Source of the DNA: a virus
IMG/VR virus record: IMGVR_UViG_3300020463_000007
Coordinates: 91,566-155,565 of that record
Length of the DNA: 64,000 nucleotides
Strand: one strand, 5' to 3'
Position 1 is the first letter of the stretch. The number at the start of each line of letters is the position of its first letter. The translations under genes were made by a program, and so were the position numbers. Shown one piece after another: positions 33,994-57,030 of the stretch. A model generated the notes under the pieces. The model was not told where the DNA came from. It saw only the letters and a list, made by a program, of their open reading frames with translations, and did not search any database.

Positions 33994-35520
33994 ATGGCAT
34001 ACACAATTGACAGATATAATAATTCTCAACTTACAGTTGTCGAAGATGGAACCATTGACCAAACTACCGACATTAAATTAGTTGGTAAAAATTATGCCGG
34101 ATACGGAGAAATACAAAATGAAAATTTTGTTTTCTTATTAGAAAACTTTTCAGGAACATCAGCACCTCCTAAAGCAATCTCAGGGCAAATTTGGTTTGAT
34201 AGTTCGACGAAAAAGTTAAAGTTTTATGACGGAACAAAATTCCGCACAACAGGTGGCGCAGAAGTTAGTGCTACACAACCAGCAGGCTTAACAGAAGGTG
34301 ACTTTTGGTGGGATACTGTAAATGAGCAACTTTATGCTTTTAATAATACAAGTTTTGTTTTAGTTGGACCACAGGACGCTGGTTCACTCTTAACACAATG
34401 GAAGAGTGCTACAATAAACGACAATGCAGGGGTTTCACGTTCTATAATTAAAGCAATTATTAACGATGAAGTTGTAATGATTGTTTCTAATCAGGCATTT
34501 ACAATAGATAGTACAGATGCAACAAACGCTATAGCAGGTTTTGATGTCGTAAAACAAGGCATGACACTTAAAAATACTGTTAATGCAACAGGCGGTGTTA
34601 CTTCTACAAACTTTAGATATTGGGGTACTGCATCTAATGCAGACAAACTAGGCGGGGTCGATGCCGCTAGTTATTTACGAGCAGGTGATGCAAACTTTAC
34701 TTCTCTAGCAGAATTTGCAGACATAGGTTTAGCGGTAGGTGATTCAAACGATTTTAGAATTAAAATTGAAAATGGCAATGAAGCAGTACTTGCAAACGAA
34801 ATAGGTACTTTAATTACCATAAGAGCCAAAGATACTGGCGGTTCTCTTAAAAATACATTAAAAATCCAAGCTAATTCTGTAATCCCTGGATTAGCTAGTG
34901 ACGGTATTTCAACTGAGACTGTAACTTTAGGTACAGCAGATCATCAATTTAATAATGTATTTGCAACAAATTTTACAGGGCTTGCTGAAAAAGCAACCAA
35001 TCTTGTAGTTGCTGGTACAAATAGAGCAGGGTCTGAAACAGTGGCAAACGGAACTGTAGCAACAAGGACCGAAGCTTCAGAGGTTATTAATGCACAGACT
35101 ATTCCAGCAGGATCACTGAAAGCAAACTACTTTGTTGGAATATCAACACAAGCACAGTATGCTGACTTAGCAGAAAAATATACCACTGCTGAAGAATATC
35201 CAGTAGGAACAGCAATGGCTATATGTAGACATGGAGATCATGAAGCAGACCTAGCATCAGACGTAGATATGTGTATTGGTGTAACATCTGATTCACCAGC
35301 ATTGCTTATGAATGCTAATAGTGAAGGACAACCAATAGCATTAAAAGGTAGAGTACCAGTAAGAGTGTTAGGAAAAGTAGAAAAGGGCGATCCTGTATAC
35401 GTAGGAGAAAATGGGGTATGTCAGTCAGCTGATTCACAAGGGCGAGATATTGTAGGTATTGCATTAGAGTCTAATGAAGATGAAAACGAAAAGCTGGTTG
35501 AATGTGTATTAAAAGTATAA
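33994..35520 (+). CDS. Tail fibre protein, third copy of the N-terminal module
   Basis: A 508-residue protein. Residues 1-130 repeat the shared fibre module (LVGKNYAGYGEI, FLLENFSG, GQIWFDS, GDFWWDTVNEQLYAF). Residue 200 onward includes a Y-W-G-T-A-S-N-A-D-K-L-GG-VDA segment, which introduces trimeric shafts in many marine phage fibres. The C-terminal 130 residues (QYADLAEKYTTAEEYPVGT near 382, GVTSDSPALLMN near 428, then GRVPVRVLGKVEKGDPVYV) match a small beta domain frequent at fibre ends. No chaperone or peptidase motif is evident. It has its own late promoter, so it can be expressed separately from the two upstream fibres. Confidence 0.78.
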   Translation: MAYTIDRYNNSQLTVVEDGTIDQTTDIKLVGKNYAGYGEIQNENFVFLLENFSGTSAPPKAISGQIWFDSSTKKLKFYDGTKFRTTGGAEVSATQPAGLTEGDFWWDTVNEQLYAFNNTSFVLVGPQDAGSLLTQWKSATINDNAGVSRSIIKAIINDEVVMIVSNQAFTIDSTDATNAIAGFDVVKQGMTLKNTVNATGGVTSTNFRYWGTASNADKLGGVDAASYLRAGDANFTSLAEFADIGLAVGDSNDFRIKIENGNEAVLANEIGTLITIRAKDTGGSLKNTLKIQANSVIPGLASDGISTETVTLGTADHQFNNVFATNFTGLAEKATNLVVAGTNRAGSETVANGTVATRTEASEVINAQTIPAGSLKANYFVGISTQAQYADLAEKYTTAEEYPVGTAMAICRHGDHEADLASDVDMCIGVTSDSPALLMNANSEGQPIALKGRVPVRVLGKVEKGDPVYVGENGVCQSADSQGRDIVGIALESNEDENEKLVECVLKV

Positions 35521-35538: not shown

Positions 35539-36438
35539 ATGACAGTTAACGCCCAAGAATTAATTACAGCAGCAACCTTTAACGGATTACAGAGTAGAAT
35601 TGAGACTGTACTAGGACAAGGGTTTAGTGATACTGGGTACGGACAAACACTAAGTAGTTCAATTGTTGCAGCAAATACTGTAATTACGGCTACACATCTT
35701 TCTAATTTAAAATCAGATATAGATAAATGTAGAGCTCATCAAACAGGTAGTCTTACATCTCTATCAACAATTAATGCTACTGATAGAATTGGTGCATCAG
35801 AATCTATAGACAAAGATGGTACTACAGATACTAGCAAAGGTGTCAATGATTATCTTTCTATACTTTCTTCTCTAGAAGCAGACAAACAATTATGTGATGA
35901 TACACAAGCATCTGTTGAGTCAGTATTGCAAAGCACAAGAGTATCTGAATGGAATGGTACTATTACACATGTTTTTACAGTGACGTTCACAGACGCAGAT
36001 GCAAGACGTCATTTTTTTAACGCTGGAGGACAAATTAGATTTCAAGCTAACTTATCTAATGGTAGTGGAGGTAAAGACTCAGATTGGGCTTCTATGTTAG
36101 CGGCTATGGGGACAGTATCAATAGCATCACATGCAACTACACAAACAGGGGCAGGAGTGCCAACAGCAATAGGAAATTTTGAACTTACTAGTTCTTCTCA
36201 AAGAATATTTCATAAATTAGGCACAGCTTACGATTATCAAAATAACATGTATACTGTAAATGCTCGTACACTTGCTGATAATATTATTGAATTTAATATA
36301 GAATTTCAAGATAATGCTGACGGCGGCGGCGATCCAAATGTAACAGGCGACATATTAAGTTCAATTACACACCGTAGACCATCGGGTACATACGTTTCAG
36401 TACCATCGCCCACATACAACAACACTTCAGAACTCTAA
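35539..36438 (+). CDS. Structural protein of unknown role, paralogue of the next gene
   Basis: A 299-residue protein. The N-terminal 90 residues are helical with LQSRIETVLGQG-x-x-x-x-GYG and LKSDIDKCRAHQ. The C-terminal 160 residues are beta-rich, with RRHFFNAGGQIRFQANLSNGSGGKDSDW near residue 156. Both blocks recur in the following gene. These repeated features suggest a fibrous virion protein; I recall similar proteins among structural genes of marine T4-like phages, but no T4 counterpart. It sits 18 bases after the third fibre gene. The weak TATAAAAATA in the gap is too degenerate to call a late promoter. Confidence 0.65.
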   Translation: MTVNAQELITAATFNGLQSRIETVLGQGFSDTGYGQTLSSSIVAANTVITATHLSNLKSDIDKCRAHQTGSLTSLSTINATDRIGASESIDKDGTTDTSKGVNDYLSILSSLEADKQLCDDTQASVESVLQSTRVSEWNGTITHVFTVTFTDADARRHFFNAGGQIRFQANLSNGSGGKDSDWASMLAAMGTVSIASHATTQTGAGVPTAIGNFELTSSSQRIFHKLGTAYDYQNNMYTVNARTLADNIIEFNIEFQDNADGGGDPNVTGDILSSITHRRPSGTYVSVPSPTYNNTSEL

Positions 36439-36457
36439 AACAAACACCTAATCTTTC

Positions 36458-36465
36458 GATAAATA
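36458..36465 (+). promoter_or_regulatory. Late promoter GATAAATA
   Basis: GATAAATA in the 57-base gap upstream of the ATG at 36496, 30 bases away, with GGAG 8 bases before the start. It is the third plus-strand exact copy of this octamer in the structural block. Confidence 0.7.
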
Positions 36466-36495
36466 CATTATATTACAGTATAATGGAGAAAAAAT

Positions 36496-37515
36496 ATGCC
36501 ATCTGTTGGGTCTAATGTTGAAGCGGCGTTGTATAATGACTATGTACAACGAGTGAATTTAATATTGGGTATTGGTACCGGTAAGAAAGGCTACGGTGTG
36601 GCAATGTCAAACACCGGCACAGCAGTAGTCGGCACTACTGATATCAGTGCATCTCAATGGGCTGGCTTAAGAACAGACTTAAATTTAATTCATCAACATC
36701 AACTTAACACTACAACTGCAATAGGTGAAATTGTAAGTGGCAATATAATTGGCGCAGATGAGTCAAATGTTGGTACCGGCTCAACAGTACTTAGAGATAA
36801 TGCCACTGATACCTTTACCATTGTTAATCCAGATACTAATAAAGGGGTAAATGATTTTGGAATAACATTTACTGCCATTGAAGCAGATCCAGAACAGGTA
36901 TTTGCTAGTCATTTAGTGCTAGAATCTAAAATTACTCCTTCAACATCGGGTGCATCTTATACTACTACATGGAACGGCACATTGACAGCAATTATAGACG
37001 TTGCATTTGCTGGCGGCTATACTTGTAAAAACAACGATGGATCCAGTGTAACTGCAAATGGTGATGATCATAGGAGACATTTTTTTAACACAGGCGGTGA
37101 TATTAGATTTTCAACAGCAGGAGCAAACGGATCCGGAAGTAAATCAGCAGATTGGAATACTATGCTTACTAATTTTGGAACTATTACTTTCAAAAATAGT
37201 TCTACTACTACAACAGGAACTGCTACAGTCGGCTCAGGGTTTGGTTCAGAAGATTTAACAACGTCATATCAGCAGGTTGCAGTAAAATTTGGCTCAGCCG
37301 CAAATTATGCAGAAAATAGTATCAAAGTCGAAGCTAAACACAATGGTAGTGGCACAATAAGTTTCCGATTTACATGGGCAGATACAGATACTGGAGATCC
37401 GTTTACTGATGAAAGTGTTGATTTGGATATTAATCTTTCCATGTCTCAGACCCGTTGTAATGGTCCTATTAGTATTGCAACACCAACATATTCTTTAGCT
37501 CAATCCATTAGCTAA
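36496..37515 (+). CDS. Structural protein, paralogue of the preceding gene
   Basis: A 339-residue protein sharing with its neighbour an N-terminal helical segment (YVQRVNLILGIG-x-x-x-x-GYG, then LRTDLNLIHQHQ) and the beta block RRHFFNTGGDIRFSTAGANGSGSKSADW near residue 195, followed by TMLTNFGTITF. The copies have diverged clearly, so the duplication is not recent. This gene has its own late promoter and ends the plus-strand structural run; a sigma70-like promoter and the accessory island begin 14 bases after its stop. No enzymatic motif. A virion surface or fibre-associated role is inferred from position and shared beta modules. Confidence 0.65.
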   Translation: MPSVGSNVEAALYNDYVQRVNLILGIGTGKKGYGVAMSNTGTAVVGTTDISASQWAGLRTDLNLIHQHQLNTTTAIGEIVSGNIIGADESNVGTGSTVLRDNATDTFTIVNPDTNKGVNDFGITFTAIEADPEQVFASHLVLESKITPSTSGASYTTTWNGTLTAIIDVAFAGGYTCKNNDGSSVTANGDDHRRHFFNTGGDIRFSTAGANGSGSKSADWNTMLTNFGTITFKNSSTTTTGTATVGSGFGSEDLTTSYQQVAVKFGSAANYAENSIKVEAKHNGSGTISFRFTWADTDTGDPFTDESVDLDINLSMSQTRCNGPISIATPTYSLAQSIS

Positions 37516-37582: not shown

Positions 37583-37930
37583 ATGGATGAAAGGCTAGAA
37601 AAAGCATTAGATTTTTCCAATCACATGATTACGTTAAACAATCAACGTAGTCTTATTCATGAAAAATTTTTGGAAAACTGTGTTCATTATGTCAACGGCG
37701 GAAAATTTAACGTAAACAGAGAATTAATTAATTTTTGTAATACTTTGATACAAAATAATCAAAGCAGTTCAATTCTTATAGATGATAACAATTCTCCAAT
37801 TGAAATTGAAAATTTACAAGATTTTCTTGATAAAATTTTAGATATATATTCTACAAATTCAAATTTGTATTTACAAAAATTTAATGAACTTAAAAAAACT
37901 AGAACTGTTGAAGGCATTCTAGATCTATGA
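37583..37930 (+). CDS. Small helical protein, first gene of the accessory island
   Basis: A 115-residue protein that I do not recognise. It is mostly helical and polar, with an Asn-rich middle and two amphipathic segments (LEKALDFSNHMITLNNQRSL near the start, and NLQDFLDKILDIYS near 80). There is no signal peptide, membrane segment or Cys motif. It has a strong ribosome site (AAGGAG) and overlaps the following glycosyltransferase-like gene by 4 bases (ATGA), so it is certainly part of the operon. As the first gene after a perfect early-type promoter it may be an adaptor or regulator for the enzymes that follow, but nothing in the sequence proves it. Confidence 0.6.
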   Translation: MDERLEKALDFSNHMITLNNQRSLIHEKFLENCVHYVNGGKFNVNRELINFCNTLIQNNQSSSILIDDNNSPIEIENLQDFLDKILDIYSTNSNLYLQKFNELKKTRTVEGILDL

Positions 37931-38784
37931 CGCAAGGTGTATTACTCTTTGCATTAAATAATTTAGAAGTAGACTATATTAAACAAGCAGTTTTTTGTGC
38001 AAAGAAAATTAAAGAACATTTAAGGTTGCCTGTAGCTCTTGTTACAGATAATTCTCAGTATCTAGAAACAACCTATACATTTTACAAAAAATATATAGAT
38101 CAAGTAATAGATATTCCTAATACACATACAGAACAAAAACGTATTTTTCTAGATGGAGTATATAGTACAAAAAAGTTAGCATGGAAAAATCATTCAAGAC
38201 CAGACTGTTATAATTTAACACCGTTTGATGAGACTATAGTATTAGATGCAGATTTTATTATTTGTAATGATAAATTGTTAAATTGTTTTGACATAAATCA
38301 AGATTTTTTAATTTATAGGCATCCAACTGATATTGCAAAAACTTTGAGAAGATTGCAGAAATTTGATAGGATAAGCGATCGTTCGATTGATATGTGGTGG
38401 GCAACAGGTTTTTACTTTAAAAAAACAGACTTTATGGAAATGTATTTTAATTTAATACAACACATAAAAGATAATTGGTCTTATTACAGATTAATGTATC
38501 AAATTCCTAACAATAATTATAGAAATGATTTTTCTTTCAGTATGGCAATACACATTTTGCAAGGATTTCAATTAGGCCCTTGGCCACAAAAAATGCCAGG
38601 GAATATGTATATGGCATCAGACGGTGATATGTTACATGAACTTAAAGGCAATAAGATGTCGTTTATCTGTGATTATACAAGTGGTGGTAGTTTTGTAGGA
38701 GCAACAATTGAAGACTCAAATGTACATGTAATGAATAAATTTAGTTTAGGAAGAGCAATAGATAAAGAGTTTGAAAATGAGTGA
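37927..38784 (+). CDS. GT-A-like glycosyltransferase, first of a tandem pair
   Basis: A 285-residue protein with a GT-A layout: an N-terminal Rossmann-like strand (GVLLFALNNLEVDYIKQAVFCAKKI), LPVALVTDN near residue 38, and a D-x-D metal motif, VLDADF, near 107 preceded by a Trp/His-containing loop. This resembles nucleotide-sugar-dependent glycosyltransferases of the GT8-like type. The C-terminal half has aromatic and Asn-rich segments suited to acceptor binding. The next gene is a paralogue with the same opening pattern. The acceptor cannot be predicted. Position directly after the tail-fibre genes makes fibre or cell-surface glycan modification attractive (inference). Confidence 0.65.
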   Translation: MTQGVLLFALNNLEVDYIKQAVFCAKKIKEHLRLPVALVTDNSQYLETTYTFYKKYIDQVIDIPNTHTEQKRIFLDGVYSTKKLAWKNHSRPDCYNLTPFDETIVLDADFIICNDKLLNCFDINQDFLIYRHPTDIAKTLRRLQKFDRISDRSIDMWWATGFYFKKTDFMEMYFNLIQHIKDNWSYYRLMYQIPNNNYRNDFSFSMAIHILQGFQLGPWPQKMPGNMYMASDGDMLHELKGNKMSFICDYTSGGSFVGATIEDSNVHVMNKFSLGRAIDKEFENE

Positions 38785-39604
38785 TGGATTTTGTTTACTA
38801 GCACAGAATAATTCTACGGTAGATTATATTAAACAAGCATATGCTCTGGCCGTAAGTATTCATAAATTTAATAAAGGACAAAACATATCCTTAATTACAA
38901 ATGATAAAGTGCCTGAAAAATATAAGCATGTGTTTGACAAAATAATTAATATTCCTTGGACTGATCAAGCAGAGCATACAGATTGGAAGATTGAAAATAG
39001 ATGGAAAGTGTATCACGCTTCTCCTTATGAACATACTATTGTAATGGATGTAGACATGCTAGTCTTGCATGATATATCGCATTGGTGGAAGGAACTGAAA
39101 AAAAGAAATTTATTTTTTGTAAGCAATGTAAAAAATTACAGAAATGAAAATGTAATTTCTAGACATTATAGAAAAACATGGGATGAAAATAATCTTCCAA
39201 ACTTGTATAGTGCATTTTATTATTTTAAAAAGTCTGACAAAGCTCATGAGTTTTTTAAATTATTAGAAATAATTATGATTAATTGGGAATTATTTTATGG
39301 AAAGTTTGCAGGAAATTACTATCAAAAATGGTGTAGTATGGATTTAAGCTGTAGTATTGCTAGTAAAATATTAGACAATACTTTAGAAATTACTGATATT
39401 AATTCTTTTATTACATTTACTCATATGAAGCCCTATTGCCAAAATTGGCATGAAACTCCTAATAAATGGACAACTGTTTTAGGAGGGTATTTTACAAAAG
39501 ATCAAACTATGCTGATTGGCAATTTTTTACAACGAAATATTTTACACTATGTTGAACCAGAATTTTTAACAGATAGATTAATTGATAGACTGGAGTCTGT
39601 GTAA
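38777..39604 (+). CDS. GT-A-like glycosyltransferase, second of the tandem pair
   Basis: A 275-residue protein; the start is ATG at 38777 rather than an in-frame TTG six bases upstream. It repeats the neighbour's plan: FCLLAQNNSTVDYIKQAYALAVSI, then ISLITND, then the D-x-D motif MDVDM near residue 91, preceded by KVYHASPYEHTIV. Later segments are aromatic (WHETPNKWTTVLGGYF near 225). It overlaps the preceding gene by 8 bases and the next by 1. The shared N-VDYIKQA pattern shows the pair arose by duplication, with strong divergence since. It probably transfers a hexose or related sugar; donor and acceptor are unknown. Confidence 0.65.
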   Translation: MSDGFCLLAQNNSTVDYIKQAYALAVSIHKFNKGQNISLITNDKVPEKYKHVFDKIINIPWTDQAEHTDWKIENRWKVYHASPYEHTIVMDVDMLVLHDISHWWKELKKRNLFFVSNVKNYRNENVISRHYRKTWDENNLPNLYSAFYYFKKSDKAHEFFKLLEIIMINWELFYGKFAGNYYQKWCSMDLSCSIASKILDNTLEITDINSFITFTHMKPYCQNWHETPNKWTTVLGGYFTKDQTMLIGNFLQRNILHYVEPEFLTDRLIDRLESV

Positions 39605-40167
39605 TGTTTTATGTCTACTATAGTGATTCAGGAGATTTATTATCAGTTACAAACGAATTAACCAGTGATAATCCGCATTTAGTAATTGATAAAGATCTAT
39701 ATGTTGATTTTGTATCTGGTAAGTGTAATCTTGTAGATTATTATGTTCTTTTAAGTCCTGAATCTCCACCAAAATTTTTAAGGAAAGATGAAACAGAGAA
39801 TTTTGATGTTGATAAAAGTATACACGAAATAAAGAGATTAGATAAAGTTACAAAATATGATCCTTTATCATTTTATATTTTCCAAGATAAAAAGAAAGAA
39901 AAATGGCAGGGAAAAGCTAATATTTCAGGACTAGTTGAGTCAAGAATCCTTAACAATAAATATTTGAGCCAGTATAAAAAAGTTTATGTTACAGAGGAGA
40001 ATAATCCTAATATATTACTAGGACAATTAACTATAGACATGAAAAAATTTGCAGATAAAAAATTATTTGATATAGAATCTGATAACAATAGTATTGTTGT
40101 GTTAGATAAGATTAGTTTATATTGCCCTGTAAATGATGAAATTTTTTATCATGTTGTGAGGAAATGA
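39604..40167 (+). CDS. Unknown protein of the accessory island
   Basis: A 187-residue protein that I do not recognise. It is a mixed alpha/beta, polar, Lys/Asp-rich protein beginning with strand-turn-strand (FYVYYSDSGDLLSVT) and containing further short strands near 110-160. There are no Cys clusters, P-loop, signal peptide or membrane helix. Its start overlaps the upstream stop (TAATG) and it is followed 7 bases later by another glycosyltransferase-like gene, so it is co-transcribed. The compact beta-rich plan would suit a small virion or scaffold protein, or an enzyme partner; I do not choose between them. Confidence 0.55.
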   Translation: MFYVYYSDSGDLLSVTNELTSDNPHLVIDKDLYVDFVSGKCNLVDYYVLLSPESPPKFLRKDETENFDVDKSIHEIKRLDKVTKYDPLSFYIFQDKKKEKWQGKANISGLVESRILNNKYLSQYKKVYVTEENNPNILLGQLTIDMKKFADKKLFDIESDNNSIVVLDKISLYCPVNDEIFYHVVRK

Positions 40168-40174
40168 AATATAT

Positions 40175-41110
40175 ATGCCTAATAAATTTAAAGTTTTGGA
40201 TTATGATGTTATCTATTTAAGCTATGATGAACCAAATGCAGAAGAAAATTATTCAGATTTACTTACAAAAATTCCCTGGGCAAAACGTGTACATGGTATA
40301 AAAGGTTCAGATGCAGCTCATAAAGAATGTGCAAAATTAAGCGAAACAGATAGATTTATTACAGTAGACGGTGATAATAAAATTAAAGATAATTTTTTAA
40401 AAGAAGAAATATCTTTTGAAGATGATGTAGAATTAGAAAACTGTGTAATTAGTTGGGCTGGAAAAAATGAAGTAAACGGCTTAGTATATGGAAACGGTGG
40501 ACTTAAATGTTGGCCAAAAGAATATGTCCTTAAAATGCGTACACATGAAAATGCGGATCCAGATAACGAACATGCTCAGGTTGATTTTTGTTGGGACTTA
40601 AAATATGTGCAAATGAATAGTTGCTTTTCAGATGTATATAATAACGCTACGCCACAACAGGCATGGCGAGCGGGCTTTAGAGAAGGTGTAAAGCTATCAT
40701 TAAATCAAGGTATAAAACCTGAAAAAAATGATTTTTTAAACTTACACTGGAGATGTTTACACTGGTTATATATATGGGCAATGGTAGGCGCAGATGTTAA
40801 AAACGGTGACTGGGCAATGCTTGGTACTCGAGCAGGTGTATATAAAACAATGTGTACTGATTGGGACTATGTTAATGTAAGAGATTTTGAATATTTAAAT
40901 AATCTATGGCAAGAAGAATTTTCTTTGATAGATAGCAACAAAGTTACTGAAGAGTCAACTTCATATGGTACAAAACTTGTTAATGAATTACAGCTACCTA
41001 TTGCTATAGAGCCTTTTACAGAAAGTGCTAGTAAATTTTTTAAGGTAATTTATCAACAACCTGATCGAGTCAACAGACATAAAGGACTATCTGGATCAGG
41101 GGTTAAATAA
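40175..41110 (+). CDS. Glycosyltransferase-like protein (EPN/VDGD type)
   Basis: A 311-residue protein. The N-terminal 90 residues show a nucleotide-sugar-binding plan: DVIYLSYDEPNAEENYSDL near residue 9, WAKRVHGI near 34, and a metal-binding TVDGDNKI near 66. A G-x-G-G loop (VYGNGGLKCWP) follows near 108. A paralogue with the same motifs, placed after a 110-residue extension, lies at 48125. Families with this DGD pattern occur in T4-like marine phages and are usually annotated as glycosyltransferases; I rely on the motifs. The C-terminal half is rich in Trp and His around LNLHWRCLHWLYIWAM. It directly precedes the radical SAM genes. Confidence 0.6.
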   Translation: MPNKFKVLDYDVIYLSYDEPNAEENYSDLLTKIPWAKRVHGIKGSDAAHKECAKLSETDRFITVDGDNKIKDNFLKEEISFEDDVELENCVISWAGKNEVNGLVYGNGGLKCWPKEYVLKMRTHENADPDNEHAQVDFCWDLKYVQMNSCFSDVYNNATPQQAWRAGFREGVKLSLNQGIKPEKNDFLNLHWRCLHWLYIWAMVGADVKNGDWAMLGTRAGVYKTMCTDWDYVNVRDFEYLNNLWQEEFSLIDSNKVTEESTSYGTKLVNELQLPIAIEPFTESASKFFKVIYQQPDRVNRHKGLSGSGVK

Positions 41111-41113
41111 CAT

Positions 41114-42085
41114 ATGCACAAAGATATGATTTATGATGTCCTAGACCATCATCACAAAGAGGCCAAGGACTGGGTCGTTGTGAATTGGAACTTAGGAAAT
41201 ATGTGTAACTACTCTTGTAGTTATTGTCCTCCTATTTTAAACAACGGTAGCTTTGGTTGGCAAGATTTTGAAGTAATTAAAAAATTTATCGATACATGCG
41301 AAAAACACTATGCACCGAGAAAAGTATATTTTGAATTCACTGGTGGAGAAGTTACGTTATGGAAAGACTTTATTAAATGTGCTCAATACATAAAGTCCAA
41401 AGGGCATGACATAGGATTTATAAGTAATGCAAGTCGTACTATTCGTTGGTGGGAAAAAAATAAAAATAATTTTGATCATGTTTGTTTAAGTTTTCATCCT
41501 GAGAGTGCTGAAGCTGGTCATTTCTTAGAAGTAGTAAAAATTATGTCTAAGGTATGTAGGACACATGTCAATATTATGATGCATACCGATCTTGGTAGAT
41601 TCAACAATGGTGTTGAATTAACAAAAAAATTAGTAAAAGAAGTACAAAATTTCAGTCTAGCTTTACAACCTCTTGTGGTTGACTTTGGAACAGAAAGATT
41701 TCCATATACAGAGCAACAACTAGATACAATAGATAGGCAATGGGAAGATTTTGGTAAGCATATTAAATATAATAAAGACTTTAAGTTATATAGAGGCAGT
41801 ATGGATATGATTAATTCTAAAACCGGCAAAACAAAAAATCAAGCGCCTCATAGGTTTATTGCCGATAATACTAACAACTGGGAAGGGTGGAAATGTTATA
41901 GCGGTGTTGAACAAATCGTTGTAGACTTTGATGGTACTGTAATGATTGGCTGGTGTAGGGTAGGAGGTTCTTTAGGGAATATGAAAGATCCTGATAATAT
42001 AGCGTGGCCAGTTGATCCTGTAATATGTAATAAAAGTTATTGTCATTGTAATTTTGATATAATGAGTAAAAAGGAGCTTGTCTAA
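41114..42085 (+). CDS. Radical SAM protein with C-terminal auxiliary cysteine cluster
   Basis: A 323-residue radical SAM enzyme. The C-x3-C-x2-C motif for the [4Fe-4S] cluster is C31, C35, C38 (GNMCNYSCSYCPP), and the GGE motif (FTGGEVTLW) follows near residue 80. The C-terminus has a SPASM/twitch-like set of cysteines in the order GWKC, IGWC, then C-x4-C-x-C near 305-312. Such enzymes generate a 5'-deoxyadenosyl radical and often modify peptides or sugars. The next gene continues in the same frame after one TAA and carries its own cysteine cluster and core, so the two may be partners. No typical peptide-binding RRE domain is apparent. Confidence 0.8.
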   Translation: MHKDMIYDVLDHHHKEAKDWVVVNWNLGNMCNYSCSYCPPILNNGSFGWQDFEVIKKFIDTCEKHYAPRKVYFEFTGGEVTLWKDFIKCAQYIKSKGHDIGFISNASRTIRWWEKNKNNFDHVCLSFHPESAEAGHFLEVVKIMSKVCRTHVNIMMHTDLGRFNNGVELTKKLVKEVQNFSLALQPLVVDFGTERFPYTEQQLDTIDRQWEDFGKHIKYNKDFKLYRGSMDMINSKTGKTKNQAPHRFIADNTNNWEGWKCYSGVEQIVVDFDGTVMIGWCRVGGSLGNMKDPDNIAWPVDPVICNKSYCHCNFDIMSKKELV

Positions 42086-43480
42086 GTGGATCAACCTACA
42101 GGCAACAAACAGCTCCGAATTTATAATAAAAATAATCAGTATAGTCTGTTTAGTGTAGATGAAGTAATAGCTAATAACCTAAATACTTGGCAAGGTTGGA
42201 AGTGTAGTGCTGGTGTAAGGAGTTTGTATATAGATTACGATGGAAATGTATGGATAGCAAATTGTGCAAGTGCATCACACTATGGTAAAATTCATAATGA
42301 ACGAGTAAAAAATTATACTAATCGTGATCAAAAATTAATAGATAGATTATGGAAAGAATACAGAGAATCTGTTATTGGTGCAGACGGAAGCGAAAAACGT
42401 AAAGAGTGGATAAATGCAAATACTGAAAATGGCTGGCCGATGCCGAAGTATAATTATAAAGAAAGTGAACAGCAACATAAGTTAATGGCTGAAATTGGAA
42501 GACTTGAAAAAAAATTCTTTGATGATCCTTATAAACAATTTATGAAAGATCCTGCTACTTGGCAATGGAAAGCAGGATTAGATACCAAAGTATGGGGCTT
42601 ACAAGGTAGTATATTTACAGGTTGGAATACTCCTAAAGAGTGGACAACTTGTCCTCTTGCAAGTTGTGGGTGCGGAGCAGATGTAATTTTAAGTAAAGCC
42701 AAAGACGAATCAGCTTTGCAAAATTTAAATGTTACAAAATATGGTTATGACGGACAAGATAAAGGAAACTACCAAGATGCTGTTGCTAATCCATATAATG
42801 CATTTGATACTACACCTGTAGGAATTGAAATGAACTTTCCAATTGATTATCAGATTCTTTGGGATATCACCAGAAGATGTAATTATGACTGTGATTATTG
42901 TTGGCCAAGTGTACATAATAACAAAGAAGCACATCATGATTATAATAAAATTATAGAAACTATAGATAAAGCAATTGATTCATGGAGTAAAGGTGCAAGT
43001 ATAAGATGGAACTTTGGAGGCGGAGAGCCTACAATAAATCCTAAATTTTTAGATATACTTAAACATCTAAAAAGTAAAAATCAATGGGTGCTTGTAACAA
43101 CAAATGGTAGTCGTAGTACAAAATACTGGACAGAAGCATGTAAATATATTAATAGTGTAAATATGAGTGCTCATTTCGGTAGTATGGATTTGTATCCAGG
43201 TAATGAAGAAAGATTTATAAAAAACTGTGAAATAATTATAGAAAGACATAAACAAGTATCAGATGATCATTGGTTAGAAATTAAATTAATGACACCTCCT
43301 GGTATGCTAGACAGAGCAAGAGAATCTTACAGCAAAATTGTAAAATTAGGAATAAATGATATAGGCGCAAATGAGAGACAAATAGGAGCAATAAGTTTAG
43401 TACCAATACGTGGTCATGACAGCGGGCAATTAGTAGGATATAGTGATAATGAAATTGGATTTTTCCAACAACAAGGATAA
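42086..43480 (+). CDS. Radical SAM protein with N-terminal auxiliary cluster
   Basis: A 464-residue protein. The start is GTG, immediately after the upstream TAA, with AAAAAGGAG 9 bases before it, so initiation is well supported. The order is reversed compared with its neighbour: the cysteine cluster comes first (GWKC at C40, IANC at C60, then TTCPLASCGC near 189-196), followed by the radical SAM core (C264, C268, C271 in RRCNYDCDYC) and a GGGEPTIN motif near 312. The two clusters resemble each other (WxGWKC-x2-GV then C-x4-C-x-C), as if one precursor had been split and shuffled. The substrate is unknown. Confidence 0.78.
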   Translation: MDQPTGNKQLRIYNKNNQYSLFSVDEVIANNLNTWQGWKCSAGVRSLYIDYDGNVWIANCASASHYGKIHNERVKNYTNRDQKLIDRLWKEYRESVIGADGSEKRKEWINANTENGWPMPKYNYKESEQQHKLMAEIGRLEKKFFDDPYKQFMKDPATWQWKAGLDTKVWGLQGSIFTGWNTPKEWTTCPLASCGCGADVILSKAKDESALQNLNVTKYGYDGQDKGNYQDAVANPYNAFDTTPVGIEMNFPIDYQILWDITRRCNYDCDYCWPSVHNNKEAHHDYNKIIETIDKAIDSWSKGASIRWNFGGGEPTINPKFLDILKHLKSKNQWVLVTTNGSRSTKYWTEACKYINSVNMSAHFGSMDLYPGNEERFIKNCEIIIERHKQVSDDHWLEIKLMTPPGMLDRARESYSKIVKLGINDIGANERQIGAISLVPIRGHDSGQLVGYSDNEIGFFQQQG

Positions 43481-45662
43481 TTATCTTTTGTTATATACCG
43501 CTGGTGTAGGCGGAGAAATAATTACGTATGCATTAAGTCAGTGTGTGCGAGAATTAAATTCTATTCCCACAATAAATGTAGGTAAAAATAGATGGTTTAC
43601 AATATGTAAAAAAGTCTATTGCAGAGACTCAAATCCCCATACACATATATACTCTGGTGAGGATGATCCAAACAAAAGCGATTTGTACAAAGATCACTTT
43701 GATCCTCTAGTATTATCTTATTGGGATAAAGACATGACTGTGTTGTGTTTTAATCTCACAAAAAACTTTGAATACTGGACAAAATTAGCTTGGCATAAAC
43801 TAAAAGATATAGAACCTATAAAAGACGACTTTATTGATACACATGTTGATCAACACAAAAAGGATTTAACAATATTAAATCAATATGTAAATCATTTTAA
43901 AAAAACACATCTAATAAATTTAGATGACTTAGATAAAAATTGTGAAAGCCTTATAGTTCAATTACAGAGAATATTTCCTAGTTTAAAGACAGTAAAATTT
44001 AGGAAAATTATTACAAAATGGATAAAGAAAAATAATAAAATTTTACAAAAAAAATATACAAAACCAATGTCTTTTGATTTGAATATTTTTCGTACAATGC
44101 AACAACGTATTGAAATGATACAGCATCCAGATTGTCCTATTGACGTAATGGTAATAGTTGCAGAGTTTGACAAAGATCAACAAGTACTTGAAGCGTTATG
44201 GAACAACCCAAATTTACCTAATATGGACTCTCCACAAGGGCGTAAAATAAGGACACTACTAAAATTAAGATTAGAAATAGATACAGATAAATTAGATAAA
44301 ACACAAGAAAATATTTTAATCAACAAAGATAGATGGAAAGCATTTTGTCCTATTGCGTGGAACCATTTAGCAACAAATGCAGATGGAAGTATACGCATGT
44401 GTTGTCAAATGATTTATAATCCATATGGAACTGTGTATAAAGAAGATGGTACAGTTCTTACCGGAAAAGATAATATTACAGAACATAGAAATGCTCCAGT
44501 CTGGAAAAAATTAAGACAAGATATGATGAACGGTATAGATCCAGAATTGTGTAGATTATGCACAGCAGAAGAACAAAATGGAATCGGTAGTAAACGACAG
44601 TGGACAAGAAAGTTGTATGAGGATACATATCATAAAGCAGTAAGTCTTACAAAAGCAGACGGTTCTATAGATGACAAAGATTTTCCTATTACATATATGG
44701 ATTTAAGATTTGGTAACAAGTGTAATTTAAAATGCAGAAGTTGTGGACCTACAGATAGTAATTTATGGTATGATGATTGGGTAAAATTACATCCTGGTAA
44801 ACCGTTTAATTATAGAGAACATAATAAAGTATCTATAGAAACTTTACCTGATGGTACAAATACTGTGCCTAATTTATTCGAACCAGATGAAACATATAGT
44901 AAGCTGTGGATTCATATAATGAATAATTTAGACACTATTAAACGATATTATTTTACAGGTGGCGAGCCAACTATTAATTTAAAGCATAGAGAATTATTGG
45001 ATTATTACATAAAAAGAGGAACTGCAAATCAAGTTATTTTAGATTATAATACTAATATGGCTGGAGTGCCCAGTAAGGTGTTTGAACAATGGAAATATTT
45101 TAAGCAGATAAACTTAGGAATGAGTATAGATGGAATAAACAATCATTTTGAATTTATAAGACATCCAGGAAAGTTTTCTACTGTTCTAAAAAATATGCGT
45201 AGAGTTGATAGAGAAAAAGGTTTTGAAAAATTAATTGCAAGTATCACTTTAACACTGAGTGTACAAAATGTTTTACACTTTCCTGAAATGCAGTGGTGGA
45301 TGAAAGAACAGAATTGGAATCGTATAGAGGAAGTTATTATTGTACATAATCTATATGGACCAGACATGTTAAATATTCAAAATTTACCTATAAAATATAA
45401 AAAATATATTGATTCAAGATATAAAAAATTTATTAAAGATATTAACAATAGATGGAATAACAGCATAGATGAAAAATCATTTTGTCGTAAAGTCGAACAA
45501 AGATGTAATAGTATTCTACAGCATTTATGGGATAAAGAACCAAACACAGATGCATATGAAAGATTATGGCCCTGGATGGAACAATTAGATTCTATTAGGA
45601 ATGAATCTTGGAAAAAATCATTGCCTGATATACAAAGAATGATTGAGGAATGTAGTGAGTAA
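43449..45662 (+). CDS. Large twitch-type radical SAM protein with unusual N-terminal domain
   Basis: About 737 residues; the start is ATG at 43449, overlapping the previous gene by 32 bases (the in-frame GTG six bases upstream is less likely). The N-terminal 280 residues are unassigned, beginning with LLLYTAGVGGEIITYAL, which suggests a P-loop-like or sulfotransferase-like fold but no confirmed motif. A twitch-type cysteine region follows (FCPIAWNHL near 299, MCC near 317, LCRLC near 367). The radical SAM core C-x3-C-x2-C lies near 424 (NKCNLKCRSCGP), with TGGEPTINL near 500. Phage proteins with N-terminal twitch clusters and C-terminal cores are known; the long extra N-terminus is the odd part here. 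Confidence 0.78.
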   Translation: MKLDFSNNKDNYLLLYTAGVGGEIITYALSQCVRELNSIPTINVGKNRWFTICKKVYCRDSNPHTHIYSGEDDPNKSDLYKDHFDPLVLSYWDKDMTVLCFNLTKNFEYWTKLAWHKLKDIEPIKDDFIDTHVDQHKKDLTILNQYVNHFKKTHLINLDDLDKNCESLIVQLQRIFPSLKTVKFRKIITKWIKKNNKILQKKYTKPMSFDLNIFRTMQQRIEMIQHPDCPIDVMVIVAEFDKDQQVLEALWNNPNLPNMDSPQGRKIRTLLKLRLEIDTDKLDKTQENILINKDRWKAFCPIAWNHLATNADGSIRMCCQMIYNPYGTVYKEDGTVLTGKDNITEHRNAPVWKKLRQDMMNGIDPELCRLCTAEEQNGIGSKRQWTRKLYEDTYHKAVSLTKADGSIDDKDFPITYMDLRFGNKCNLKCRSCGPTDSNLWYDDWVKLHPGKPFNYREHNKVSIETLPDGTNTVPNLFEPDETYSKLWIHIMNNLDTIKRYYFTGGEPTINLKHRELLDYYIKRGTANQVILDYNTNMAGVPSKVFEQWKYFKQINLGMSIDGINNHFEFIRHPGKFSTVLKNMRRVDREKGFEKLIASITLTLSVQNVLHFPEMQWWMKEQNWNRIEEVIIVHNLYGPDMLNIQNLPIKYKKYIDSRYKKFIKDINNRWNNSIDEKSFCRKVEQRCNSILQHLWDKEPNTDAYERLWPWMEQLDSIRNESWKKSLPDIQRMIEECSE

Positions 45663-46938
45663 GAAATATAATTTAGATATAGAATCACAAATAAAAAATA
45701 ATCCTGCATTCTGCACAATGCCGTTTACTCATCAGTATATTGCAACAGATGGTTTTGTAAATCTTTGTTGTCTTGCTGATTATAATAAACCAATTGTAAA
45801 AAATGTGCAAGGACATGATTTGCAAAAAGTATGGACTAGCAACATAATGCAAGAAATACGCAAAAAAATGCTAAAAGGGGAATTCGAACCAAGATGCAAA
45901 ACTTGCTGGAAGCAGGACAAAGAAGGAGGCGGGTCTGATCGTGAAAGTTTGAATACAGTATATCTTAAACACAAATTAAAACAACATCCTATCACTTTAG
46001 ATATCGAAAAAGGAAATAGCACAGGTGGCCCTACATGGGCAGATTTGCGTCCAGGAAGACTGTGTAATTTTGGCTGTAGAATGTGTTTTGGATCAATAAG
46101 CAGTACAATAGCTCAGGAACAGTTAGAACATCCTGAAACTCAGGATATTATGTTCGAAGAATGGAAAGATGTAAAAGACTGGATAGACGATCCAGTATGT
46201 TTCGAAAGTATTAAAAAACAAATTCCAAAAATGAATCTAATTAAACTAGCTGGCGGCGAACCTTTGTTTATGCCAGGTGTATTTAAGCTACTAAAATGGT
46301 GTATTGATAGCGGTAATACACACTTAATGTTGGATGTGACTACAAATGGTAGTAGGATAAAAGGAAAAACAACTAGTTTATTACCTAAATTTGCAAAAGT
46401 AGATTTACAATTTAGTATGTGTGGAGTTGGAGTTGCAAATGATTATATCAGGTATGGAGCAAACTGGGCTCAATTAGACGAAGCGTATAAACATTATTTA
46501 AAGCTCTCTGGACTAAGGGTGCAATTACTTGCAACTGCTCAAATTTACAACGCCTGGGACTTAGCAAATCTTATTGACTACTGGTATGAGACAGGTTCAT
46601 CTCCAAATATTGTTTTCAATCCAGTCAACGGACCTATAGATTTAACGATAGATTTACTACCATATGCTTATAGGGTTGAAATTGCTGAAGATTTAAAGAA
46701 AAGATTGTGCCTTCTTACACAAGAGCAACAGCGAATAAGTAGAATTCATCATATTATTACAAGACTTACAAAGCCAGAGCCTACAGATTTAGAAACTATA
46801 GACAAATATAAAAATTGGCGCACACATTTTGTGAAAAGAACCTTACTGTATGACAGAATTAGAAAGCAAGATGTTACAAAAATACATCCTAAATTAACAG
46901 AAGTATGGAATACATGGTTGAAAGAATATGCCGATTAA
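45655..46938 (+). CDS. Twitch-type radical SAM protein
   Basis: A 427-residue protein. I prefer the GTG at 45655 (GAGGAA just upstream) to an in-frame TTG at 45643; either overlaps the previous gene by 8-20 bases. The N-terminus has a twitch cluster: FCTMPFTHQYIATDGFVNLCC (C20, then the CC pair near 37) and RCKTC near 81. The radical SAM motif follows near 137 (RLCNFGCRMCFG), and the GGE motif (LAGGEPLFMPG) near 200. It has the same domain order as the upstream large protein, but without its 280-residue N-terminal domain. Probably both act on related substrates. Confidence 0.8.
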   Translation: MSKKYNLDIESQIKNNPAFCTMPFTHQYIATDGFVNLCCLADYNKPIVKNVQGHDLQKVWTSNIMQEIRKKMLKGEFEPRCKTCWKQDKEGGGSDRESLNTVYLKHKLKQHPITLDIEKGNSTGGPTWADLRPGRLCNFGCRMCFGSISSTIAQEQLEHPETQDIMFEEWKDVKDWIDDPVCFESIKKQIPKMNLIKLAGGEPLFMPGVFKLLKWCIDSGNTHLMLDVTTNGSRIKGKTTSLLPKFAKVDLQFSMCGVGVANDYIRYGANWAQLDEAYKHYLKLSGLRVQLLATAQIYNAWDLANLIDYWYETGSSPNIVFNPVNGPIDLTIDLLPYAYRVEIAEDLKKRLCLLTQEQQRISRIHHIITRLTKPEPTDLETIDKYKNWRTHFVKRTLLYDRIRKQDVTKIHPKLTEVWNTWLKEYAD

Positions 46939-48094
46939 TTTTTACTATGATAAAATCACTAATGTAGGCCCTGTGCCCAATGGTATCACTTCGTATTACG
47001 ATGACAATCCAGATGTTTGGCCATTACCTTTCGGCACTATTGATAGTGTAGACAGCATGGTAGAAGTAATATCAAGTTTTTATTATTCAATGCAAAAAAA
47101 TAATGTTGAAATAAGCCTATTTACAGGCGATGATATATTTGATCCTGTAAAAGGATTTAAAGAAGACATATTTTATCCTTTTGAAGTATCATATGGAATC
47201 AATATTAAAATACCACACAAAACGCTAGATTATTTACGTGCTGGAAAAATGAAGGTATTGTTGTTAGGGCAAACATTGCAAGGTTATAATGAAGTAATTC
47301 GTCTAAGACATATAGCAGAAATGTTTATGAGATGTAATGTCCCTATTAAAAATATAATTATTATAACCGCCGATATGAATAATAGCTACCAAGAACTTTT
47401 ACACCCATACAAATCTTATTGCATAGATTGGTGGCAAATAGAAGCTCGTCTAATAATTAACGAAGATACTGAGAAATATAAAAATTTCTTCAAACCTATA
47501 AATGAACCTATGCCTGTGCTAGACTTTGATATGGATAACTGGAATCCTAAACTTTTATACCATAATTTTTCACAGTATCCAGAAGCATTAAATTGTACAG
47601 AATTGCATACAGCATTAGAAGCCAATGACTTGTATGATCATGGTACCATTATACACAAGGATGATAATATTGATTACCATAAAAACAGCTTAATAAGTAT
47701 ATTAACTCCTTGGGCACCTAATAAAAGTGATAAAATATATGTTAGTGAAGTAAATTCATTGTTCACTGATTTGGATTTATGGCAAATATTAGTAATGGGT
47801 AAACCTTTCATAGTGTTCGGAAGTCAACAAATAATGAAGTATCTTAATCAACAAGGTTATTTTACTTTTTTTGATCTAATAAATGAAAAATATGATACCT
47901 ATGTTGATCCAAATATTAAAGCAGACTTAATTTGCAAAGAATTAAATAGGATTAAAAAAAATAGGAACACAAATGAGGTTAAGGAGGCCTTAAAAATGCT
48001 AAAAAAATTTGCTGTAGTAAATAGAGCTAAATTTTTAGAAAGATCCCACATGCCTATGTTCTTAAATTTATTTGATAAAATAAGATATGGTTGA
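46928..48094 (+). CDS. Glycosyltransferase-like protein of the TEK/GKPF type
   Basis: A 388-residue protein. The C-terminal 130 residues carry a recurring motif set found in glycosyltransferase-like proteins of marine bacteria and phages: VSEVNSLFTDLDLWQILVMGKPFIVFGS near 275, YLNQQGYFTFFDLINEKYD near 312 and a basic helix near 340. The usual TEK tripeptide is replaced here by TDLD. The N-terminal part (FYYDKITNVGPVPNGITSYY, VLLLGQTLQGYNEV near 115) is alpha/beta. It overlaps the radical SAM gene by 11 bases. A sugar-transfer or sugar-modification role is an inference; there is no D-x-D metal motif comparable to the upstream enzymes. Confidence 0.5.
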   Translation: MPINFYYDKITNVGPVPNGITSYYDDNPDVWPLPFGTIDSVDSMVEVISSFYYSMQKNNVEISLFTGDDIFDPVKGFKEDIFYPFEVSYGINIKIPHKTLDYLRAGKMKVLLLGQTLQGYNEVIRLRHIAEMFMRCNVPIKNIIIITADMNNSYQELLHPYKSYCIDWWQIEARLIINEDTEKYKNFFKPINEPMPVLDFDMDNWNPKLLYHNFSQYPEALNCTELHTALEANDLYDHGTIIHKDDNIDYHKNSLISILTPWAPNKSDKIYVSEVNSLFTDLDLWQILVMGKPFIVFGSQQIMKYLNQQGYFTFFDLINEKYDTYVDPNIKADLICKELNRIKKNRNTNEVKEALKMLKKFAVVNRAKFLERSHMPMFLNLFDKIRYG

Positions 48095-48119
48095 CATTAT
48101 GTCTAAGAAAGTGTATAAT
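48091..48119 (+). promoter_or_regulatory. Perfect sigma70-like promoter inside the island
   Basis: TTGACA (48091-48096), 17 bases, TATAAT (48114-48119); the hexamers match the consensus at every position. It begins in the last codon and stop of the preceding gene and ends 5 bases before the ATG at 48125, so the expected start site (about 48126) coincides with the start codon. Confidence 0.75.
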
Positions 48120-48124
48120 TAGTA

Positions 48125-49156
48125 ATGTATGATATAATTTTTGTTGGTGAAAAGACACAACACTATCAAGACCTTAAAAATAAATTTTTTGTGTTGAAAT
48201 ATGCTGAAAATTTTGACTCTGCACAAAAGTTGTCAGTGACTGCTATGTTTTGGGTCATATGGGATGATTTACTTGTAGATAAAAATTTTAATTTTACCTA
48301 CACACCCGAAGAGTGGGACCAAAAAATAATTCATGTATTCAAAAATGGTGACAAGTACAATGGAATATGTCTATATCCGAAAAGAGTAGATGTACATCCA
48401 AGAGAAGCACAATATAGGTTTTTCGCAGACAAGAAAGAAATTGATATTTTAGCAAGTACTCCTAAGCCAGTGTATGATGTGGTGTTTATAAGTTACAATG
48501 AACCTAATTGCGATGAAAACTATAGGAGATTATTAAATAAAATGCCATGGGCAAAGAGGGTACATGGAGTTACAGGTATTCATCAAGCACATATAAAAGC
48601 AGCAAAACTTTGTAAATCGGATATGTTCTATGTGGTTGACGGTGATGCATATATTGACGATAATTTTGACTTCCAAATGACAGTTTCTATTAATGAGCAA
48701 AATATTGTGCATGTATGGAGAAGTCAGAATCCTGTAAATAGGCTTACTTATGGTAACGGCGGAGTAAAATTACTACCAAGAAAACTTACTTTAAATGTAG
48801 ACACTGGAAGCACAGATATGACTACAAGTATTAGTGTGCGTTTTAAAGCCATGGCTGAAGTAAGCAATATATCATTATTCAATACGGATCCTTTTAGCAC
48901 ATGGAAAAGTGCTTTTAGAGAGTGTGTCAAGCTGTCAAGCAAAGTAATACAAGGGCAAAATGATAAAGAAACAGAAATAAGATTAAAAGAGTGGTGTACT
49001 AAAGGAAAAGATAAACCATTTGGACAGTTTTGTATCGCTGGTGCAATAGCAGGAAAAGAATATGGGCAACAATGGAAAGGAGATGCAACTAAACTGAAAA
49101 AAATTAACGACTTTAGTTGGTTGCAGAAAAAATTTGATGACATCTCAGTTAATTAA
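48125..49156 (+). CDS. Glycosyltransferase-like protein, longer paralogue of the gene at 40175
   Basis: A 343-residue protein. The first 110 residues form an extra alpha/beta domain (YDIIFVGEK-x-x-H-Y-x-x-L, a PEEW motif, then KNGICLYPKRV-like text). The remainder matches the EPN/VDGD family: DVVFISYNEPNCDENYRRL near 118, WAKRVHGVTGIHQAH near 142, VVDGDAYIDD near 174 and TYGNGGVKLLP near 211. It is therefore paralogous to 40175, and the pair brackets the radical SAM genes. No ribosome site is visible upstream of its ATG, and the perfect promoter ends 5 bases before it, so it may be translated from a leaderless mRNA. The precise sugar chemistry is unknown. Confidence 0.65.
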   Translation: MYDIIFVGEKTQHYQDLKNKFFVLKYAENFDSAQKLSVTAMFWVIWDDLLVDKNFNFTYTPEEWDQKIIHVFKNGDKYNGICLYPKRVDVHPREAQYRFFADKKEIDILASTPKPVYDVVFISYNEPNCDENYRRLLNKMPWAKRVHGVTGIHQAHIKAAKLCKSDMFYVVDGDAYIDDNFDFQMTVSINEQNIVHVWRSQNPVNRLTYGNGGVKLLPRKLTLNVDTGSTDMTTSISVRFKAMAEVSNISLFNTDPFSTWKSAFRECVKLSSKVIQGQNDKETEIRLKEWCTKGKDKPFGQFCIAGAIAGKEYGQQWKGDATKLKKINDFSWLQKKFDDISVN

Positions 49157-49778
49157 AAGTTTATACTATGTACTAGATAATCCTAATTTTAACAAGGATT
49201 GTATTAGCGGTGGGCAATTAAAAAGCAAAGAATGGCTTGTAAAAAAAGTTGAAGAATATTGTCCTGATCTTGGTATTGTTTTTTTATGTGCTGGTTGGTA
49301 TGCAACTCTTGCTACTATGCTATTTGAGTCAAAAGTGCTTATAACAAAAATTAGAAGTTTTGATGTCGACGACACATGCAAGGATATTGCAGAGCAATTT
49401 AATATGCCATGGGTAATAGATCAATGGAAGTTCAAAGCAACAACTTTAGATATCAATACTATACAATATCCAACAACCTACGAAACTTTAACATATGATA
49501 AAAAGTTTGTAACTTTGACAGATATGCCAGATACCATTATAAACACAAGTTGTGAACATATTCCTAATTTTAGTGATTGGTACTCAACTATTCCAAAAGG
49601 TAAACTTGTTATTTTACAAAGCAATAATTTTACTGATTTACAAGAACATGTAAATTGCAGTAGTAGTTTGAAAGAATTTAGTGCAAGTGTTCCTATGACC
49701 GAAACACTTTATGAAGGTGAACTAGATCTTACTGATCAAGGTGGCTATATAAGATTTATGAAAATAGGTGTAAAATAA
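49137..49778 (+). CDS. SAM-methyltransferase-like protein
   Basis: A 213-residue protein; the start is ATG at 49137 rather than the adjacent TTG. Plan: VFLCAGWYATLATMLF near residue 47, ITKIRSFDVDDTCKDIAEQF near 69 and INTSCEHI near 135. This corresponds to motif I, the acidic nucleotide-binding loop and a post-motif of class I SAM methyltransferases, in degenerate form. The glycine-rich GxGxG loop is replaced by CAGWYAT, as in several phage families of this fold. It overlaps the upstream gene by 20 bases and ends the island. The next gene is convergent, with one base between stops. A substrate in surface glycan modification is plausible but unproven. Confidence 0.55.
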   Translation: MTSQLIKSLYYVLDNPNFNKDCISGGQLKSKEWLVKKVEEYCPDLGIVFLCAGWYATLATMLFESKVLITKIRSFDVDDTCKDIAEQFNMPWVIDQWKFKATTLDINTIQYPTTYETLTYDKKFVTLTDMPDTIINTSCEHIPNFSDWYSTIPKGKLVILQSNNFTDLQEHVNCSSSLKEFSASVPMTETLYEGELDLTDQGGYIRFMKIGVK

Positions 49779-57019: not shown

Positions 57020-57030
57020 AGGTTAATCCT

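Follow-up and report, generated by a model that had tools for sequence, protein, structure and literature searches.

In pelagimyophages the host-recognition cluster has tail-fibre genes followed by glycosyltransferase (GT) genes, and cassettes of radical S-adenosylmethionine (SAM) enzyme genes (rSAMs) are noted there in passing together with the GTs, with no function given in the passages on this region (PMC7029224). The same passages present the region behind T4-like fibres as a general hot spot of host-surface genes. Many rSAM genes in a single T4-like marine genome have also been reported, i.e., 12 in the environmental genome TARA_ERS488813_N000010, which is discussed as a consumer of Fe-S clusters, with no pathway proposed in the section on it (PMC5332604). 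Phage GT clusters that alter lipopolysaccharide (LPS) or capsule for superinfection exclusion contain paralogous GTs, carbamoyltransferases and methyltransferases, and rSAMs are not mentioned for them (PMC7824862). Here we describe a run of twelve genes, the island, at positions 37583-49778 of a window of 64,000 nucleotides, i.e., the whole stretch of DNA that was analysed, which is the final 64 kb of the 155,565-bp uncultured virus record IMGVR_UViG_3300020463_000007. The island shares the fibre-then-GT arrangement with the pelagimyophages, the wealth of rSAM genes with the TARA genome, and, taken together with its relatives, paralogous GTs, carbamoyltransferase and methyltransferase-like genes with the superinfection-exclusion clusters. 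It differs from the latter by its rSAM core and strict linkage to fibre genes, whereas the pelagimyophage account, as far as its treatment of the region goes, gives no gene-level description, gene order, domain analysis or function of the kind presented here. The first-pass annotation of this DNA held that no phage pathway of this composition had been described; this is correct for function, but the passages cited above had already noted rSAM cassettes with GTs (PMC7029224) and the genome with 12 rSAM genes (PMC5332604). We find that the island is real and intact, and that it is a conserved, coherent and uncharacterised pathway rather than a set of scattered genes, with the phage fibres or the surface of the host as the probable site of its product.

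Gene order and conservation of the island

The twelve open reading frames (ORFs) all lie on the plus strand, and neighbours overlap or are separated by gaps of at most about 30 bp. The first starts 67 bp past the last of two paralogous fibre-region genes and the 3' end abuts a minus-strand gene at 49780, which bears out the earlier description of a tightly coupled gene run beside the fibre genes. Four paralogous pairs, g2/g3 (28% identity), g5/g11 (35%), g6/g7 and g8/g9, make up most of the island. The features are as follows (aa, amino acids):

33994..35520, +, tail-fibre gene, the upstream partner; PHROG tail fibre phrog_19602 (E 1.8e-11), C-terminal domain common to annotated tail fibres, relatives at a similar site in phages Atu_ph07 and Phosso
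35539..37515, +, pair of paralogous fibre-region genes (299 and 339 aa, 31% identity between them); 41 of 64 non-redundant loci have them upstream of G6
37583..37930, +, g1, conserved protein of 100-115 aa between fibre genes and GTs; in 41 of 64 non-redundant loci
37927..38784, +, g2, GT8/glycogenin-like glycosyltransferase (profile A4 against PDB glycogenin, E 4e-6)
38771..39604, +, g3, paralogue of g2 (28% identity), GT8-like by the same profile; phrog_1903
39604..40167, +, g4, 187 aa, without family match; a similarly placed gene of variable sequence in most relatives
40175..41110, +, g5, GT-A-fold glycosyltransferase with VDGD motif (AlphaFold pLDDT 88.7; Foldseek PDB matches); fused to G6 in loci L077, L081 and L100
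41114..42085, +, g6 (G6), core rSAM that ends in an auxiliary-cluster domain (alignment A1) with the invariant cysteines C261, C281, C305, C310 and C312; PF04055 37 bits
42086..43480, +, g7 (G7), rSAM with twitch-like auxiliary-cluster domain N-terminal to the barrel (alignment A2; similarity to g6); PF04055 55 bits
43443..45662, +, g8, N_Twi rSAM (residues 299-733) with N-terminal region of about 300 aa; NF033640 323 bits; split form in relatives
45643..46938, +, g9, second N_Twi rSAM, SPASM-like cluster domain; NF033640 291 bits, PF13186 34 bits
46928..48094, +, g10, without family match; in 3 of 64 loci, closest relatives only
48125..49156, +, g11, second VDGD GT-A protein with extra N-terminal domain; 35% identity to g5, VDGD at the matching position
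49134..49778, +, g12, methyltransferase-like protein without Pfam match above cut-off; in six bacterial loci members of its family likewise lie near rSAMs

The clustering of the rSAM genes is not due to chance, because g6-g9 give the only PF04055 matches of the full 155,565-bp record and all lie within about 5 kb. The ratio of nonsynonymous to synonymous substitution rates (dN/dS) relative to the related locus L005 is 0.03-0.13 for ten genes (g2, g3 and g5-g12), and these genes are therefore under purifying selection. A scan of the window for tRNA genes found none, and no gene for an A-type Fe-S carrier (PF01521) was found in the record.

Viral scans with g7 as query gave 14 loci, and those with the G6 alignment gave 123 IMG/VR contigs, of which 80 were kept. 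Removal of near-identical copies left 64 non-redundant loci, including three from a bacterial-genome scan (one of these, L021, is phage-like). Among the 53 loci with at least 7 kb of upstream sequence, g1 is present in 40, a GT of the g2/g3 type in 41, g5 in 43, a fibre gene in 39 and all four in 39; the complete block, in the order fibre - g1 - GT - GT - g5 - G6, is likewise found in 39. Behind G6, one to six additional rSAM genes are present in every one of the 53 loci that extend at least 6.5 kb downstream, and in the 64 loci overall the number is almost always two to six. A B12-binding rSAM, nearest to models of RiPP (ribosomally synthesised and post-translationally modified peptide) C-methyltransferases and of P-methyltransferases and below their cut-offs, is encoded in half of the 64 loci, and some relatives have neighbours of sugar type, i.e., carbamoyltransferase, cytidylyltransferase and nucleotidyltransferase genes. 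In L077, L081 and L100 g5 and G6 form one protein, and the GT-like and rSAM activities are therefore directly linked. The neighbourhood comparison suggested in the first-pass annotation thus found genes that are not scattered singly, but conserved in order and content in dozens of phages, with g5-G6 fusions and a partial counterpart in bacteria. Two of the fusions (L077:8120-10936 and L100:1405-4230) carry several repeated N-terminal domains of about 90 aa, and in L009 (6006-7369) dihydrofolate reductase-like and thymidylate synthase-like genes sit between g5 and G6.

A precursor peptide gene was sought in 705 cassette gaps (median -4 bp), and no widely conserved short ORF was seen, in agreement with the earlier statement that no peptide precursor is recognisable; one small-ORF family occurs in four loci (L015, L038, L043, L047) and is lineage-specific only. 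The fibre proteins of the G6 loci have no common Cys/His tail at their C-termini. Pfam matches to a peptide recognition element, a peptidase or an exporter numbered zero among the proteins scanned, which covered part of the neighbours.

Glycosyltransferases and radical SAM enzymes

The four GTs proposed for the island hold up. For g2 and g3 the A4 profile matches glycogenin (E 4e-6) over about 107 residues with the consensus ETIxLDxD, while neither has a Pfam GT match. The model of g5 matches GT-A enzymes with a Foldseek probability of 1.0, yet with TM-scores of only 0.3-0.4; at these modest scores its best PDB folds are the S-glycosyltransferases of glycocins, SunS and ThuS, followed by RmlT and TarP. 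D65 and D67 of the VDGD motif are invariant, and g11 joins g5 by paralogy. No match to PF00535 (GT2) was found in the record. The remaining labels of the first-pass composition list fared less well, as neither "TEK-type" for g10 nor "methyltransferase-like" for g12 could be confirmed: no Pfam family matches either protein above cut-off. In g10 the stretch PFI..G.....YLN..GYFTF.DLINEKYD is conserved. The label sulfotransferase-like, used for a family in some relatives, comes from a PRxGS motif alone, and its profile A7 matched no PDB sequence.

The four proposed rSAM proteins are likewise supported. The cut-offs applied were 29.5 bits for PF04055, 170 bits for NF033640 and 180 bits for the viperin model. 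Against PF04055 g6, g7 and g8 score 37, 55 and 32 bits, respectively, and g9 falls below the cut-off and has the motif CxxxCxxC. Against NF033640 (N_Twi rSAM, a twitch domain-containing radical SAM protein) g8 and g9 reach 323 and 291 bits, whereas g6 (30 bits) and g7 (33 bits) are non-members. In alignment A3 the N_Twi cysteines of the N-terminal auxiliary cluster and of the motif CxxxCxxC (C94, C112, C113, C162, C165, C219, C223 and C226) are invariant, and so is the motif GGEP. Part of the N-terminal region of g8 is a separate gene in L006, L008 and L015. We know of no characterised NF033640 member; here two of them occur in the fixed company of G6, G7 and GTs.

G6 carries the motifs CxxxCxYC and GGE and five auxiliary cysteines in its C-terminal domain. 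The catalytic cysteines are intact in all 95 G6 copies and the auxiliary cysteines in all 94 copies that cover the domain. In G7 a related cysteine domain, NxWxGWxCSAG...DYDGNxW...CxxxxCxCGAD, precedes the barrel and none follows it, so that G7 looks like a domain-permuted relative of g6; this assignment rests on the alignments because the AlphaFold model of g7 is poor (pLDDT 62). The fold matches of that low-confidence model include the rSAM sugar enzymes BlsE, SpeY, DesII and AbmM. The nearest solved relatives of G6 and of the N_Twi proteins are YydG and SkfB, respectively, both peptide enzymes, at similarities that are weak or below family cut-offs. Membership of g6 and g7 in the viperin family was rejected (48 and 61 bits, respectively).

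Relatives in cultured phages and bacteria

Judged by baseplate and fibre genes, the closest phages in culture are Agrobacterium phage Atu_ph07, Sinorhizobium phage Phosso and Pseudomonas phages of the PA5oct type. A pelagimyophage affiliation was rejected, as the baseplate gene is nearest to those of Atu_ph07 and the PA5oct-type Pseudomonas jumbo phages and not to that of HTVC008M. In Atu_ph07 (gp164-gp172) and Phosso rSAM genes also lie directly behind the homologous fibre gene and on the same strand, but the cassette is a different one, made of other rSAM subfamilies, and none of its proteins matches the G6, G7, g5 or GT profiles at E<=1. It includes a SPASM-domain rSAM beside a protein of 296-306 aa that ends in CHxSCHxSCHxSRSRR (L169:17119-19070 in Atu_ph07, L170:18415-20396 in Phosso); this end looks like a peptide tail for rSAM chemistry, and the protein may be an rSAM-modified phage protein. 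Atu_ph07 gp170, which bears this tail, is not detectably a member of the fibre family at 35539. PA5oct has fibres and no annotated rSAM at the site. Taken together, Atu_ph07, Phosso and the window indicate that rSAM cassettes of different kinds can occupy the position behind the fibre, and this speaks for a fibre-linked role. The main text of the Atu_ph07 paper does not mention radical SAM genes. A 5186-aa ORF (13807-29367) precedes the fibre genes of the window, and a giant structural gene is correspondingly placed in Atu_ph07 and Phosso.

Sequence searches of 50,697 phage records with g7, g5, g1 and g3 gave no matches; g8 gave only 23% matches in two Vibrio jumbo phages, and a G6 relative used as query gave only weak ones. 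HTVC008M has an rSAM gene with a weak match to G6, and its neighbours are genes for a glycosyltransferase, a methyltransferase, a carbamoyltransferase and a UDP-glucose dehydrogenase. Among 84,980 species genomes of bacteria and archaea three G6 loci were detected, of which L021 has a fibre-like gene and L019 and L020 appear chromosomal. Cultured phages and bacteria hardly ever carry a true G6. In the Bdellovibrio-type class 7 of 144 genomes have G6 or a more distant relative, as do 2 of 58 in the Oligoflexia-type class; in the former class N_Twi rSAMs are found in 46 genomes and flagellin in 129.

Forty N_Twi neighbourhoods were clustered with seven other loci to give a bacterial set of 47. 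Arrays of rSAM genes occur in these together with g12-type genes (six loci), g5-type genes (three loci, one with a tandem pair), GT2 (ten), carbamoyltransferase (six), AsnB, GDSL and ABC-2 exporter genes, and relatives of g5, g12, G6/G7 and the N_Twi rSAMs co-occur in chromosomes of the Bdellovibrio class. The association of g5, g12 and rSAMs is therefore independent of phage fibres and is found amid genes of surface-polysaccharide type. Flagellin genes directly adjoin in L019, L119 and L166; genomes G105, G107 and G108 have many N_Twi genes and no flagellin. In L166 (4510-9329) an N_Twi rSAM gene (834 aa) lies between two flagellin genes and is followed by flagellar-filament-like and heptosyltransferase-like ORFs. 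L020 (1564-6084), from an Oligoflexia metagenome-assembled genome, has a RiPP-like cluster in which an 83-aa Gly/Cys-rich peptide (3444-3695) is encoded near two rSAM-like ORFs. In a literature search of incomplete coverage no description was found of the conserved module, the g5-G6 fusions, the bacterial counterpart or the cassette of Atu_ph07 and Phosso.

Other genes of the window were noted in passing. A gene for a TctA tripartite tricarboxylate transporter (PF01970, 288 bits) lies beside one for a solute-binding-like protein (55511-58086, minus strand), i.e., a phage-borne transporter; homologues of the two genes adjoin the island in L006, and a homologue of the TctA end does so in L008. 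An AMP-binding enzyme-like ORF (245 aa, partial match) stands back to back with a class IV aminotransferase (62199-63772, minus strand). Three paralogues, 28-45% identical (52382-53098, 54768-55514 and 59728-60699, the last without Pfam match), have the appearance of 2-oxoglutarate oxygenases; 59012-59719 and 61482-62216 encode paralogous P-loop/sulfotransferase-like proteins (39% identical), and 51133-51468 (minus strand) a DUF6356 protein (43.5 bits, cut-off 24.4).

Possible products of the cassette

The first-pass annotation suggested an unusual glycan on fibres or host envelope, or a modified peptide or lipid. The coherent pathway and the link to the fibre genes are real, and fibre glycan, host-envelope glycan and peptide modification are competing readings. 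Tentatively, and with slightly less than even confidence, we read the island as a variable decoration module of the tail-fibre gene cluster, the product of which would be a radical-modified glycoprotein adhesin on the fibre. The GT8-like g2/g3 and the GT-A proteins g5/g11 would assemble a sugar chain on an acceptor, most likely a fibre protein encoded just upstream, and an rSAM relay from G6 via G7 to the N_Twi proteins g8 and g9 would perform SAM-radical chemistry (epimerisation, dehydrogenation or cross-linking) on the sugars or the acceptor peptide. Where a B12-rSAM is present, as in half of the relatives, C-methylation may be added, and g12-like, sulfotransferase-like and carbamoyltransferase genes would contribute further groups in the loci that have them. 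A common substrate of GTs and rSAMs, a mainly glycan product and its location on the fibre are all inferred. Support for fibre decoration comes from the fibre-g1-GT-GT-g5-G6 block with its downstream rSAMs, from the fusions and invariant cysteines, from the GT-A fold of g5 with peptide S-glycosyltransferases as first matches and the GT8 match of g2/g3, from the sugar-type neighbours in some relatives, bacterial loci and HTVC008M, and from the different rSAM cassette that Atu_ph07 and Phosso have in this position, together with the g7 fold matches to sugar rSAMs.

Several points weigh against fibre decoration. Position behind the fibre is in itself no proof of a fibre target because the region is a hot spot of host-surface genes, and published thinking assigns its GTs to changes of host LPS (PMC7029224, in the passages on the region; PMC7824862). 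Peptide chemistry fits as well as sugar chemistry because YydG and SkfB are peptide enzymes. In about nine loci (L014, L016, L017, L061, L062, L064, L066, L073 and L082) G6 and at least one further rSAM occur without the GT/fibre block, and the rSAM set can therefore stand alone. No gene for NDP-sugar synthesis was identified in the island, so that sugars would have to come from the host. Flagellin adjacency in 3 of the 47 bacterial neighbourhoods is not clearly above a rough chance estimate of 1-2.

It is tempting to speculate on a wider role, although we regard it as rather unlikely, in which the rSAMs form a dedicated maturation system for extracellular filaments, i.e., phage tail fibres and the flagellin or other surface filaments of some predatory-type bacteria. 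The G6-G7-N_Twi relay would make carbon-radical modifications on filament protein or glycan, and phage lineages would swap rSAM cassettes behind the fibre gene. The flagellin link is only a hint, since the observed adjacency is about the chance estimate.

It is conceivable, if somewhat unlikely, that the cassette instead remodels a host surface polysaccharide (LPS/O-antigen or capsule) during infection, with the rSAMs tailoring its sugars, for example to keep out competing phages or to prevent progeny from adhering to debris. Such a role has been proposed in print for phage GT clusters (PMC7824862, and PMC7029224 in the same passages), and in bacteria the counterparts have genes for ABC-2 polysaccharide exporters, carbamoyltransferase and AsnB nearby, but taken alone it does not explain why the order directly behind the fibre genes is strict and why Atu_ph07 and Phosso have another rSAM cassette in that place. 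A RiPP-like maturation, in which rSAMs directly alter amino acids of a fibre protein or of a protein associated with the fibre (epimerisation, cross-links, C-methylation) and GTs glycosylate the same protein without any glycan being tailored, would account for the peptide enzymes among the nearest solved relatives (YydG for G6, SkfB for N_Twi, SunS/ThuS for g5), for the RiPP C-methyltransferase models nearest to the B12-rSAM and for the Cys/His-tailed protein of Atu_ph07 and Phosso. We nevertheless consider it unlikely: each of these similarities is either weak or short of the family cut-off, a widely conserved precursor ORF and a common Cys/His tail in the fibre proteins of G6 loci were not seen, and the bacterial neighbours are of sugar type. 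A diffusible or cofactor-like small molecule, i.e., a sugar- or nucleotide-derived metabolite, is very improbable; sets of several rSAMs with GTs resemble secondary-metabolite clusters, and a sugar/amino-acid metabolite cluster has been proposed for cyanophages (PMC7824862), but the linkage to structural genes is tight and no exporter or resistance gene was recognised in the island. The chance that the rSAMs are viperin-like antiviral or anti-host enzymes is negligible, as the matches of g6 and g7 to viperin models (E 1e-12 to 1e-18) are confined to roughly the first 110 barrel residues, 61 bits is far from the cut-off of 180, and auxiliary-cluster domains are present.

A product on the fibre would mean that phages diversify the determinant of their host range by oxygen-sensitive radical chemistry; to our knowledge there is no example of an adhesin modified by radical chemistry. 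A product on the host surface would instead represent a new kind of sugar tailoring directed at rival phages. In both cases the cassette brings to light uncharacterised enzymes, the permuted G7 and the N_Twi rSAMs, for which the gene neighbourhood limits the possible substrates, and part of the question can be tested in culture with the related cassettes of Atu_ph07 and Phosso.

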